Assembly (NCBI RefSeq): GCF_019968905.1
Contig: NZ_CP079946.1
Span: forward strand, 8,281,356-8,345,355
Direction of reading: 5' to 3'
DNA from: Corallococcus sp. EGB
GTDB lineage: Bacteria > Myxococcota > Myxococcia > Myxococcales > Myxococcaceae
Length of the DNA: 64,000 bases
Both the position numbers and the translations under genes were made by a program. Positions 165 through 18,968 of the stretch are shown here, piece by piece; within the stretch, counting starts at the first letter, position 1; every line of letters starts with the position of its first letter. The notes beneath the pieces are model-generated. The model searched no databases and had not been told where the DNA came from. It worked only from the letters and a program-made list of their open reading frames with translations.

Positions 165-1052
165 GTGGGGAGGGTGGGACGCAAGCGGGCCGCGGGCGGC
201 ATCGAGATTCCGGGATGGGCGTGGCTGGTGCCGTGCGCGCTGGTGCCCGTGGTGCTGCTCAACCTGGGCGTGGCCTGGCTGGGCGGGACGCAGGTGTCGC
301 CCCTGTCCTTCTCCTTCCTCCCGACGAAGGCCCGCGCCCTGGGGGCCTACGTGGCGCACCGGCCCGCGTGCGTCCTGGACGAGCACCCACCGCTGGAGCC
401 GCTCATCACGGAAGCGGAGCGCCGGCACGGGATTCCGACGGGGCTCTTGCAGGCGCTCATCCAGGTGGAGTCGGAGACGCGGGTGCACCGCATCTCGCCG
501 GCGGGAGCCATGGGGCCCGGGCAGCTCATGCCGGACACGGCGGAGATGATGCGGGTGGAGGACCCCTTCGACCCGGCGCCGTCCGTCGACGCGAGCGGGC
601 GCTACCTGGCCGAACAGCTGCGGAGGTTCCGGGACGTGCGGCTCGCGGTGGCCGCGTACAACGCGGGGCCGGGGTCGGTGAACGGGCACGTGCCGCACAA
701 CGGGGAGACGGAGTTCTACGTGGCCAAGGTGCTCGCGGCCTATGAGCATACGAGGCCGAAGGCGCCAGCCGTGGCGAAGCGCCCGGTCATCCCCGAGGCG
801 CCGGTCAAGACCGCCGCCACCGTGAAGACTCCTGTCGCGCAGGCCCACGCGAAGGCGCCCGCGATGAAGGCATCCACCACCACGCAGGTGAGCGCGAAGG
901 CGTCCACCGCGCAGGCCGCGAGGAAGGCCCGTCCGCCCGATGCATCCACGAAGCAGCCATCTGCCCCGAAGGTGACGGCCCCCGTGAAGCCCGCGGCCCG
1001 TCCGGCCATGAGCGCCAAGCCTCCCGCGAGGGTCGCATCGGCGACGCGCTGA
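165..1052 (+). CDS. membrane-anchored lytic transglycosylase (SLT domain)
   Basis: The 295-residue product is a probable peptidoglycan lytic transglycosylase that cleaves the MurNAc-GlcNAc bond from the periplasmic side. A basic N-terminus (RVGRKR) precedes one hydrophobic segment at about residues 18-40, so it is probably anchored in the inner membrane. The SLT domain covers about 75-195: the VES motif holds the likely catalytic Glu102, followed by GAMGPGQLMPDTA (115-127) and AYNAGPG (164-170), all standard for family 1 enzymes. Residues 198-295 are Lys/Ala/Pro-rich with TVKTP and AKAP-like runs, a low-complexity tail that may bind the wall or DNA. The start is GTG at 165; a GTG at 174 is also possible. 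Convergent with nagB across a repeat cluster. Confidence 0.85.
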   Translation: MGRVGRKRAAGGIEIPGWAWLVPCALVPVVLLNLGVAWLGGTQVSPLSFSFLPTKARALGAYVAHRPACVLDEHPPLEPLITEAERRHGIPTGLLQALIQVESETRVHRISPAGAMGPGQLMPDTAEMMRVEDPFDPAPSVDASGRYLAEQLRRFRDVRLAVAAYNAGPGSVNGHVPHNGETEFYVAKVLAAYEHTRPKAPAVAKRPVIPEAPVKTAATVKTPVAQAHAKAPAMKASTTTQVSAKASTAQAARKARPPDASTKQPSAPKVTAPVKPAARPAMSAKPPARVASATR

Positions 1053-1147: not shown

Positions 1148-1310
1148 AACCTGTCCGACTGTCGGACAGGTTTCCCTCGGCTCCGCCGGACCGGCAGCCC
1201 CGAGCCACGGTCCTCCAAGCCTGTCCGACTGTCGGACAGGTTTCCGCGACCCGGCTTCAGCGGCGGCCCCAGCCATGCCTCTTCGAACCTGTCCGACTGT
1301 CGGACAGGTT
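1148..1310. repeat. array of three 25-bp palindromes, 68-70 bp period (cluster 1)
   Basis: Three copies lie at 1148-1172, 1218-1242 and 1286-1310. Each is an inverted repeat with left arm AACCTGTCCGAC, a central T, and the exact reverse complement as the right arm; the middle copy has one arm mismatch (AGCCTG). As RNA or single-stranded DNA each would fold into an 11-12 bp stem with a tiny loop. The array fills the 305-bp gap between the convergent slt and nagB genes, which holds no gene. Short T runs follow the copies (GGTTTCC, GGTTTCTT), so they could act as terminators, but the regular spacing is not explained by that. I do not recognise the family. Confidence 0.9.
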
Positions 1311-1315
1311 TCTTC

Positions 1316-1378
1316 GGTGCGCCGCCGACAGGGAGGTCCTTCGGGATTCTCTCCTTCTCATCCGTGGAGACGGACTTC
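1316..1378. repeat. module shared with the second palindrome cluster (copy A)
   Basis: This 63-bp stretch begins 5 bp after the last palindrome of cluster 1 and matches the reverse complement of 17348-17406: GGTGCGCCGCCG is identical, then after a 4-bp gap 36 of 47 positions agree, including CCTTCTCATCCGTG without mismatch. It overlaps the last codons of nagB, whose stop codon (1358-1360) falls inside the conserved CTTCTCATCC block. Confidence 0.75.
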
Positions 1379-2143
1379 AGGGTCGCGGATCCGGGCTGCC
1401 TCCAGCGTTCGCGCTGGCAGGCCGCTGGCGGCGCCCGTGTCCAGCCACAGCTCCACGTCGCGGTGGAGCTGCAGGAACGAGGCGGGACAGCGGGGCGTCA
1501 GCGGGCCGTGCACCATCGCCGTCACCGCCGCGGCCTTGTTCACGCCGAACGCCAGCACCACCACCTTGCGCGCCTGGAGCACCGCCGCCATGCCCAGCGT
1601 CAGCGCCGCCATGGGCACCTTCGACGGATCATCCCCGAACGCCATCACGTGCGACAGCCGCGTCTCCCGCGACAGGCGCGCGCGGTGGCTCGCCGCCGTC
1701 AGCACCTCGCCGGGCTCATTGAAGGCGATGTGCCCGTTGGGCCCCACGCCCAGCAGCAGCAGGTCCAGCCCTCCGGCCGCCGCGAGCGCCGCGTCATAGC
1801 GCGCGCATTCCGCCTCCGCGTCCGGCGCGCACCCGTCGAAGAAGTGGATCCGCTCCGTTGACAAATTCACATGACGGAACAGGTGCCGGTCCATGTACGC
1901 GCGGAAGCTGCCCGCGTCCTCCGGCGGCAGTCCCAGGAACTCGTCCATGTTGAACGTCGTCACCCGAGACAGGTCCAGCGCCCCCCGGGCCGCCAGCTCC
2001 ACGAGACTCCGGTACACGTTGAGCGGCGAACGCCCCGTGACGAGCCCCAGCACCTGCTTCGGGTTGTGCCGCACCACCTCGGCGATGCGCGCCGCGCAGG
2101 AGGAGGCCGCCTCCTGCTCCGTCGGGAACACCCGTAGGTTCAT
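1358..2143 (-). CDS. nagB: glucosamine-6-phosphate deaminase
   Basis: The 261-residue protein converts glucosamine-6-phosphate to fructose-6-phosphate plus ammonia, the step that feeds amino sugars from wall or chitin turnover into glycolysis. Family motifs are in order: VLGLVTGRSPLNVY (31-44, phosphate loop), NMDEF (66-70), and GVGPNGHIAFNEPG (132-145) with the ring-opening His138 and Glu143. The position of E. coli Asp141 is Asn here, as in Bacillus-type enzymes. The start is the ATG at 2143, which gives the MNLRVFPT opening typical of the family; an upstream in-frame ATG adds 25 residues with no homology. The length is usual for NagB. The pfkA gene upstream points the other way; the enzymes meet at fructose-6-phosphate. 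Confidence 0.92.
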   Translation of the reverse strand: MNLRVFPTEQEAASSCAARIAEVVRHNPKQVLGLVTGRSPLNVYRSLVELAARGALDLSRVTTFNMDEFLGLPPEDAGSFRAYMDRHLFRHVNLSTERIHFFDGCAPDAEAECARYDAALAAAGGLDLLLLGVGPNGHIAFNEPGEVLTAASHRARLSRETRLSHVMAFGDDPSKVPMAALTLGMAAVLQARKVVVLAFGVNKAAAVTAMVHGPLTPRCPASFLQLHRDVELWLDTGAASGLPARTLEAARIRDPEVRLHG

Positions 2144-17128: not shown

Positions 17129-17347
17129 GCCGCCAGTCCACCACACCGGGTACTGATGGGGCGACAACCGGGCGTTGCAGGGGGAAGAACGTGAGCCGGG
17201 GCCAGCTCGGAGCGCCGCACGAGGCCGCAACGTCATCGTTGACGCCTGCGCCATCGAGGCAAGCACGCTTCACGCCAGCAAAGGTCCCGGCGCGCGAAGG
17301 ATGCATCTGCATCCCGCTTCTTCCAGGCGCTCCCAATCCCCGGAACC

Positions 17348-17406
17348 GAATCCAGTCCTCACGGATGAGAAGGTGAGAACCCCACGGGGCCTCCCGGCGG
17401 CGCACC
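17348..17406. repeat. module shared with the first palindrome cluster (copy B, inverted)
   Basis: The reverse complement of this 59-bp stretch aligns with 1316-1378 at 48 of 59 positions plus one 4-bp gap. It again lies exactly 5 bp from the nearest palindrome (17412-17436), so palindrome, spacer and module form one unit. Here it sits in intergenic DNA upstream of the alpha/beta hydrolase gene and is not part of a recognisable gene. Confidence 0.75.
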
Positions 17407-17411
17407 TCGCG

Positions 17412-17640
17412 AACCTGTCCGACTGTCCGACAAGTTGGGAGGAACACGGCGGAGGGACTCCGCCCCATCCCCCCGCGAAACCTGTCCGACTGTCGGACAA
17501 GTTGGGAGAACACGGCGGAGGGACTCCGCCCCATCGCCCCCGCGAAACCTGTCCGACTGTCGGACAAGTTCGAAAACAGCGGCCGGGAGCGGGACGGGTC
17601 CATCCACGCAGCGGAAACCTGTCCGACTGTCGGACAGGTT
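17412..17640. repeat. array of four 25-bp palindromes, 67-70 bp period (cluster 2)
   Basis: Copies at 17412-17436, 17479-17503, 17546-17570 and 17616-17640 carry the same left arm as cluster 1 (AACCTGTCCGAC plus T). The last is perfect; the first three end CAAGTT instead of CAGGTT, and the first also has one changed base in the right arm. The two spacers between the first three copies are near-identical and each contains a second hairpin, GGCGGAG-GGA-CTCCGCC (17448-17464, 17514-17530), so 17412-17545 is effectively a 67-bp tandem repeat. The 600 bp between the hydrolase and DUF1501 genes (17129-17729) hold no gene that I can support, only this element. Confidence 0.9.
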
Positions 17641-17729: not shown

Positions 17730-18968
17730 TCAGGTGAACATCCCGAGGGCCCCGTTCTCCTGATAGCCGGGGAACACCTTCGCGAGGGTCACTCCGGGGC
17801 GCCAGGCTCGCAGGGCTTCGGACAAGGGGGCGCGGATGTCGGTCCAGGAGGGCACGTCGCGGCCGTCCTGGAGGCGCTCCACCGTGAGCGCGTCGAAGCG
17901 GCCGTGCACGCCGCCCTTCACTCCGCCGCCCAACGCGAACATCACGCCGCCCACGCCGTGGTCCGTGCCCTGGTTGCCGTTCTCCTTCACGGTGCGGCCG
18001 AACTCCGTCATCACCAGCACCGTCACGGTGTCGAGCTTCGGCCCCAGGTCCGCCGTGAACGCGGCCAGCGCGTTGCCCAGCTCCTCGCAGCGCTTCGCGA
18101 ACACGCCCTGCGTGACGCCCTGGGCGACGTGCGTGTCCCAGCCGCCCATCTCCGTCGCCGCGACCTCCAGGCCCACGTCGCCCTTGATGAGGCGCGCGAT
18201 GTCCTGGAGACGGCGGGCCAGTGGCGTCCCCGGGTACGTCACGCCGGGCGACACGGGCAGCTTCGCGAGGCGCGCGCCATCCAGCTTCGACATGGCTTCA
18301 AAGGCGTCCGCGCCCGCGCCCTTCAGGGCTTGATCCACCGCGCCGGCATAGAGCGCGGAGAAGCCCTGGCGTGCGCCCCCATGCTGGCGTCCGGTGCGCA
18401 GCCGGAAGTCCTCCAGCCGGCCCATGGCGATGGCTCCCGCGCTGCCATAGAGCGCACGGGGGAGCGTGGGTTGCAGCGCCACGGCGCGCAGGGGTGCGTC
18501 GTCCTTCGCGTCCGCCAGCGCTCGGTTGAGCCAGCCGTCCGCGGTGGACTTGCGGCCCGGCGTGCCGGACTCCAGGAAGTCCTGCGCGTCGAAGTGCGAG
18601 CGCGGCGCGACGGACAGGCCCACGCCGGGGAGCACCGCGAGCCTTCCCTCCGACCACAGCGGCATCAGCGCGCCGAGCGACGGGTGCAGGCCGAAGGTTC
18701 CCTTGAGCTTGAGCGCGGCGTGGTCTCCCTGGAACTTGAGCGCCAGCGTGGGCCGTGCGCGCTGATAGGCGTCGTCCTCCACGGGTGGCACCAGGGACAG
18801 GCCATCCGCGCCTCCGCGCAGGAAGACCGTGACCAGTGCGCGGCGGGCGGGCGTATCGCTGGGACTCGCGGCCCAGGCTCGGGCGAGGAAGGACGGTGCC
18901 AGCACGAGGCCCGCGCCGGTCACGCCCAGTGCCTGGAGGAGCTGCCTGCGGGAGGGGCGTGTCGTCAT
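17730..18968 (-). CDS. DUF1501 protein, Tat-exported
   Basis: A 412-residue DUF1501 protein, a family related to sulfatases/alkaline phosphatases whose function is poorly known. The N-terminus PSRRQLLQALGVTGAGLVLAP is a twin-arginine (Tat) signal (Arg7-Arg8), so it folds in the cytoplasm before export. Family hallmarks: LVTVFLRGGADGLSLVPP, VLPGVGL, HFDAQDFLESGTP, DTHVAQG and VLVMTEFGRTVKENGNQGTDHG near the C-terminus. Its ATG overlaps the DUF1800 stop as ATGA. DUF1800-DUF1501 pairs recur in Myxococcota and Planctomycetota, and the overlap supports a joint function, probably in the envelope. Confidence 0.88.
   Translation of the reverse strand: MTTRPSRRQLLQALGVTGAGLVLAPSFLARAWAASPSDTPARRALVTVFLRGGADGLSLVPPVEDDAYQRARPTLALKFQGDHAALKLKGTFGLHPSLGALMPLWSEGRLAVLPGVGLSVAPRSHFDAQDFLESGTPGRKSTADGWLNRALADAKDDAPLRAVALQPTLPRALYGSAGAIAMGRLEDFRLRTGRQHGGARQGFSALYAGAVDQALKGAGADAFEAMSKLDGARLAKLPVSPGVTYPGTPLARRLQDIARLIKGDVGLEVAATEMGGWDTHVAQGVTQGVFAKRCEELGNALAAFTADLGPKLDTVTVLVMTEFGRTVKENGNQGTDHGVGGVMFALGGGVKGGVHGRFDALTVERLQDGRDVPSWTDIRAPLSEALRAWRPGVTLAKVFPGYQENGALGMFT

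Follow-up and report, generated by a model that had tools for sequence, protein, structure and literature searches.

A BOX-like interspersed palindromic element in Corallococcus and its candidate link to a co-amplified GntR regulator family

In the genome of the soil bacterium Corallococcus sp. EGB, two neighboring loci carry clusters of a palindrome that end in a shared module, in opposite orientation. This arrangement raises the question of whether palindrome and module were copied as one unit, as a preliminary description had proposed, and what kind of element this would be. Both loci lie in the window, the whole stretch of 64,000 nucleotides that was analyzed (bases 8,281,356–8,345,355 of the 9.43-Mb single-contig genome). 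A search of the window with the 19-mer CTGTCCGACWGTCGGACAG, allowing up to 2 mismatches, yielded 7 matches compared to 0.01 expected from shuffles. Together with an alignment of the modules, this search placed all seven palindromes and the two modules where they had been described. The features are as follows, with the 19-mer matches given as cores and the genes named by recognition of their sequence, the DUF1501-like gene following the preliminary description.

165–1052, plus strand: lytic transglycosylase-like open reading frame (slt), left flank of array 1
1148–1172, no strand: array 1, palindrome unit 1 (core 1151–1169)
1218–1242, no strand: array 1, palindrome unit 2 (core 1221–1239)
1286–1310, no strand: array 1, palindrome unit 3, adjoining the module (core 1289–1307)
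1311–1389, minus strand: array 1 leader module, delimited by model search and empty-site alignment, including the nagB stop codon (1358–1360)
1358–2143, minus strand: NagB-like glucosamine-6-phosphate deaminase (nagB), right flank of array 1
17337–17411, plus strand: array 2 leader module, delimited by model search
17412–17436, no strand: array 2, palindrome unit 1, adjoining the module (core 17415–17433, 2 mismatches)
17479–17503, no strand: array 2, palindrome unit 2 (core 17482–17500)
17546–17570, no strand: array 2, palindrome unit 3 (core 17549–17567)
17616–17640, no strand: array 2, palindrome unit 4 (core 17619–17637)
17730–18923, minus strand: DUF1501-like gene beside array 2

In array 1, 98 bp separate the end of slt, a gene with orthologs in sister species, from the nearest palindrome core. 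On the other side, the 3′ end of nagB reaches into the module in this genome. Aligned with each other, the two modules (1316–1378 and the reverse complement of 17348–17406) agree in 48 of 59 positions, which confirms the earlier count, and their alignment has one 4-base gap.

The palindrome belongs to a large family. The exact 17-mer TGTCCGACWGTCGGACA occurs 89 times in the genome at about 48 loci and not once in the reversed control, and a BLAST query gave 164 matches. We fetched 45 further loci; locus-level counts below refer to 47 loci. The arrays comprise 1–15 palindrome units, nearly all of them intergenic, at spacings of mostly 67–73, 48–52 or 36–40 bp. These spacings peak near 39, 51 and 69 bp, and no helical phasing (10.5-bp periodicity) of the array sites was found. 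Each unit has the palindrome AAACCTGTCCGACWGTCGGACAGGTTT at its center, flanked by outer arms rich in GC, and follows the consensus GAAACCTGTCCGACWGTCGGACAGGTT.TGGAGGACCG.GGC..GGGGGC.CCG..CCA.CCGGGCCGC. The spacers between the palindromes are homologous units that all have one polarity relative to the module, and therefore not the unique spacers of a CRISPR array, an assignment that we rejected. We also considered a 1.28-kb segment repeated between arrays at two loci as part of the element and discarded it, as it looks like an insertion of an IS4-type transposase element (L146, 9199–10475; L141, 5763–7039, reverse). Its two copies, located within or beside palindrome arrays, are 94% identical and have the ends CTGAAG..ATCCCCTCAT.

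For the module, we built a model of 79 positions from 38 module copies that included both window copies, and it found these two far above chance in the genome (8282668–8282743, E = 3e-17; 8298693–8298763, E = 6e-15). Altogether, 21 copies of the ~80-bp module were detected in the genome at E < 1e-4, with TGAGAAGGTGAGAACCC as the conserved core. All 21 adjoin a palindrome, at the same end of every array, including a lone module beyond the fetched loci (8,704,521), which also lies beside a degenerate array. According to the preliminary description, palindromes lacking the module would make the composite a coincidence. Such palindromes exist at 27 of the 47 loci, yet every module has its palindrome. 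Because over half of the arrays have no module, the module is an optional leader at one array end. The composite thus stands as a repeatedly dispersed unit, but with an optional, one-sided module and with the palindrome unit as its basic element.

Other details of the proposed unit did not extend beyond the two window loci. The 5 bases between palindrome and module had been regarded as unrelated; the family consensus extends the palindrome outward as GAAAC/GTTT. Their number had been taken as constant, which fails genome-wide: the distance from the module to the TGAGAAGGTGAGA core is near-constant but not fixed (36–41 bp, mostly 40). The similar distance of 90–95 bp from the stop codon of the neighboring gene turned out to be a coincidence, the nearest gene being from about 25 to more than 300 bp away across the 47 loci.

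To follow the element through related taxa, we compared palindrome copies and orthologous sites. The palindrome was present in 16 of 16 genomes searched of the host genus, with 3–135 exact copies. Elsewhere in the order, a few copies were found in three of six genomes of one genus (g3) and in one of seven genomes of another (g7), and none in the remaining genera of the order searched. The preliminary description had advised looking for empty sites in sister strains, and these exist: at the slt–nagB site of array 1, five species (G070, G060, G064, G065, and G067) have a short intergenic gap with no palindrome. Using 21 anchors, orthologous sites could be placed in three species. The site of a 12-unit array (L083) is empty in all three, and empty sites were also observed at L063, L068, L052, and L057. 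Where the site is occupied, the module is conserved and the number of units behind it varies: array 2 counts 4 palindromes in this genome vs 2 in G070, and in sister species we counted 3, 3, and 12 units at L048 (8 here), 11, 14, and 7 at L065 (13 here), and 1 and 1 at L073 (5 here). From the empty sites and the differing unit numbers, it therefore follows that elements appear at new sites and that units multiply or shrink in place, while at any single site a loss in the sister species instead of a gain is possible. A dispersed, non-autonomous element, as suggested previously, is hence the right kind, given that all 21 modules lie beside palindromes and that orthologous sites are empty or filled among sister species.

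Candidate target-site duplications of 9 bp (L057) and 4 bp (L063 and L068) lie in flanks that are too diverged for any to be established, in the two genera where this was attempted. Inverted outer arms are present around the palindrome; a matching autonomous element was not found. In genus g3 (G047 and G046; L260–L270), there is a parallel family made up of solo palindromes, whose inverted arms CCTCCGG...CCGGAGG are conserved; one of its sites (L269) is empty in G048 and G045. Some low-copy species (L296 and L301 in G062, L298 in G065, L305 in G067) have a further, longer repeat that is centered on the same palindrome and has the outer ends GTCGCCGG/CCGGCGAC, possibly another wrapper around the same core.

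The symmetry of the palindrome could reflect a hairpin or a protein-binding site. If the palindromes were bidirectional intrinsic terminators (AAAACC...GGTTTT), spread as cassettes behind genes, this would agree with their symmetric hairpin potential, their short A/T runs, and their location: 40 of the 47 classified arrays adjoin at least one gene 3′ end, and arrays between convergent genes show a twofold but marginal enrichment (p = 0.057). The pattern of substitutions, however, argues against it. In 250 oriented copies, most GTC/GAC positions are conserved to 93–99%, and position 14, the hairpin partner of position 6, varies between G (169 copies) and C (73 copies). At this pair we counted 90 one-sided and 0 compensatory changes, and few compensatory changes at other pairs. 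In an arm-swap test, exchanging the partners of the outer arms did not worsen their pairing, indicating no pairing beyond the shared consensus. Compensatory stem changes combined with a U tract, which characterize intrinsic terminators, were not seen here, the T runs beside the palindrome being only 2–4 long. Moreover, termination needs no arrays of up to 15 units, and the palindrome is also found upstream of GntR genes and in frame in their coding tails. A maintained hairpin or terminator was rejected based on the covariation counts and the arm-swap test, and we consider terminator cassettes a very improbable explanation.

The conservation of GTC/GAC, the freedom of position 14, and the lack of compensatory change therefore fit a protein-binding site and not a hairpin. 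In orthologous arrays, the 15-bp core diverges by 10% vs 21% at other positions, in alignments that are not independent and may be biased by copy-number differences. The palindrome consists of two overlapping GT-N3-AC boxes (TGTC-S-GACA) and thus contains the GT-N3-AC operator core. The consensus for the FadR subfamily of GntR regulators is GT-M-N-K-AC, within NyGTM-N0-1-KACNy and with 3 nt between GT and AC (PMC4494728), and the GT-C-S-G-AC boxes found here fit it. They differ from operators of this subfamily in that two boxes overlap in each 19-mer and that up to 15 follow in tandem at intergenic positions genome-wide. Overall, we regard the palindrome unit as a probable GntR operator.

Missing from the first reading was a GntR gene family whose members have this palindrome upstream. 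It reaches up to 15 copies per genome, with nine to ten paralogs in this genome. The proteins contain an N-terminal GntR winged helix (PF00392, E = 2e-10) and an all-helical C-terminal domain; PDB profile matches point to FadR, and the best folds for the predicted model (mean pLDDT 78) are FadR/FCD. By Pfam, PDB profile, and predicted fold, we class the family as FadR-like. In the paralogs of this genome, the palindrome lies at a near-fixed place, and the DNA similarity between paralogs starts near it. Relative to a conserved TGTCAG element, its position is −87 to −94 in 19 of 20 GntR copies examined from 12 genomes of the host genus, and −57 in the remaining copy. Some GntR genes have a second palindrome that is read in frame within the coding tail, namely those of three single-copy genomes and two of nine copies in this genome; it yields GNLSDCRTG-like peptides. 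GntR genes, together with their arrays, are insertion-polymorphic as well, with clean empty sites; in one example, two species lack 1.9 kb between the same boundaries. The numbers of GntR genes and palindromes are correlated (Spearman rho 0.82, p = 1e-4, 16 genomes, not phylogenetically corrected).

Apparent N-terminal "frameshifts" in GntR genes were considered as phase variation, a reading rejected because the start is better placed downstream at the invariant M19. GntR loci of G000 (L135–L143; e.g., L136, 6665–7918) encode a conserved core with long, variable, probably disordered tails, several of which end in a W.ARLWR...LG-like motif. At the GntR copies examined in genera g7 and g8 the palindrome is absent, and in G120 it is degenerate. 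One g7 genome (G078; L158, L160–L162) has 28 GntR matches, eight of which were examined and have no palindrome; several share upstream DNA starting with GAACTCCTAAC, which suggests their own way of spreading.

Some observations count against an operator of this family. Most arrays are located at gene 3′ ends and not at promoters. Palindromes also exist in genomes without this family: the low-copy genome G066 contains 5 of them but lacks the FadR-like GntR genes, and in G047 of genus g3, 11 solo palindromes occur without any close GntR homolog. Because of these two genomes and the solo version of g3, a binder other than GntR is possible. The palindrome might then be an operator for some other protein of wide conservation, either a regulator or a nucleoid protein, that has the GntR family as only one target, and the mostly intergenic positions would agree with that as well. 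However, palindrome number co-expands with GntR copy number, the position is near-fixed at every GntR gene examined in the host genus, and the box structure fits GntR, so that we regard another regulator as unlikely.

The palindromes in genomes without this GntR family, together with clean empty sites, variation in unit copies, and outer inverted arms around the palindrome also in g3, would suit purely selfish MITE- or BOX-like DNA, in which a transposase would move the arrays and recognize the palindrome, leaving the GntR genes as hitch-hikers or victims. But the palindrome occupies the middle of the unit rather than the ends, old orthologous copies retain a conserved core, and its position at GntR genes is fixed even in very-low-copy genomes. 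There is also no clear target-site duplication, and Y1_Tnp (PF01797, RAYT) was detected in none of ten genomes tested, with positive controls. Overall, purely selfish arrays appear somewhat unlikely to us.

The lack of a Y1/RAYT transposase in these ten genomes also led us to reject an assignment to REP/RAYT (IS200) elements. Like the present element, RAYT-mobilized REP/BIME repeats are short and palindromic, form clusters in intergenic regions, and adjoin the members of one gene family; the differences are the perfect, long palindrome and the GntR regulator as the flanked gene. In Rickettsia palindromic elements, a palindromic repeat is found in frame inside coding regions. The palindrome described here is likewise found in frame, but only in the GntR tails (GNLSDCRTG), whereas nearly all other copies are intergenic. 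BOX elements of Streptococcus pneumoniae (boxA-boxBn-boxC) are modular and intergenic, combine a distinct module at the end with internal units repeated in tandem in variable number, and favor convergent gene pairs (PMC3049150). The palindrome element is also modular, with variable tandem units and an end module, a likeness in build by which we do not claim membership. In contrast to BOX, the module has no predicted RNA structure (0 pairs; an Rfam search for a known RNA family gave just two sub-threshold miRNA chance matches), and the conserved palindrome that forms the internal unit does not show the hairpin covariation expected of a conserved RNA stem-loop. Furthermore, no boxC-like second end module was found, each array having one end module, and the same palindrome is located upstream of an amplified regulator gene.

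With moderate confidence, we favor a non-autonomous, BOX-like interspersed element consisting of an optional leader and 1–15 units, mostly of 67–73 bp, whose palindrome is the predicted operator of the co-amplified FadR-like GntR family. The whole element, presumably moved by a recombinase, would arrive at a site, as the empty sites in sister species support. Thereafter its internal units expand or contract at that site behind a persistent module, as the arrays compared show. The palindrome, which lies upstream of each GntR gene examined in the host genus, most probably acts as a double operator, with two overlapping TGTC-S-GACA boxes for FadR-like GntR dimers to bind. Dispersed arrays could provide a pool of binding sites that ties GntR to intergenic regions, and might titrate GntR or silence or insulate neighboring transcription. 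More tentatively, and with clearly less confidence, we suggest that the regulator gene and its own operator were amplified together as a coupled system, with the operator upstream of the gene and, in several copies, in frame in its tail, and with mobile operator arrays spread in the same genomes, such that factor and site pool would co-expand and vary by species.

In the titles, abstracts, and hit counts of literature searches on myxobacterial palindromic, MITE, or dispersed repeats and on Corallococcus GntR, nothing on this family appeared. Small bacterial interspersed repeats rarely have an assigned binding partner. For the repeat core described here, the genomes that contain it also encode a candidate binder, a recognition sequence is predicted, and its presence or absence varies naturally from species to species, which therefore makes the choice between selfish DNA and a dispersed regulatory network directly testable. 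Should the pairing hold, it would provide a natural example of a regulator whose operators spread alongside it in mobile arrays.
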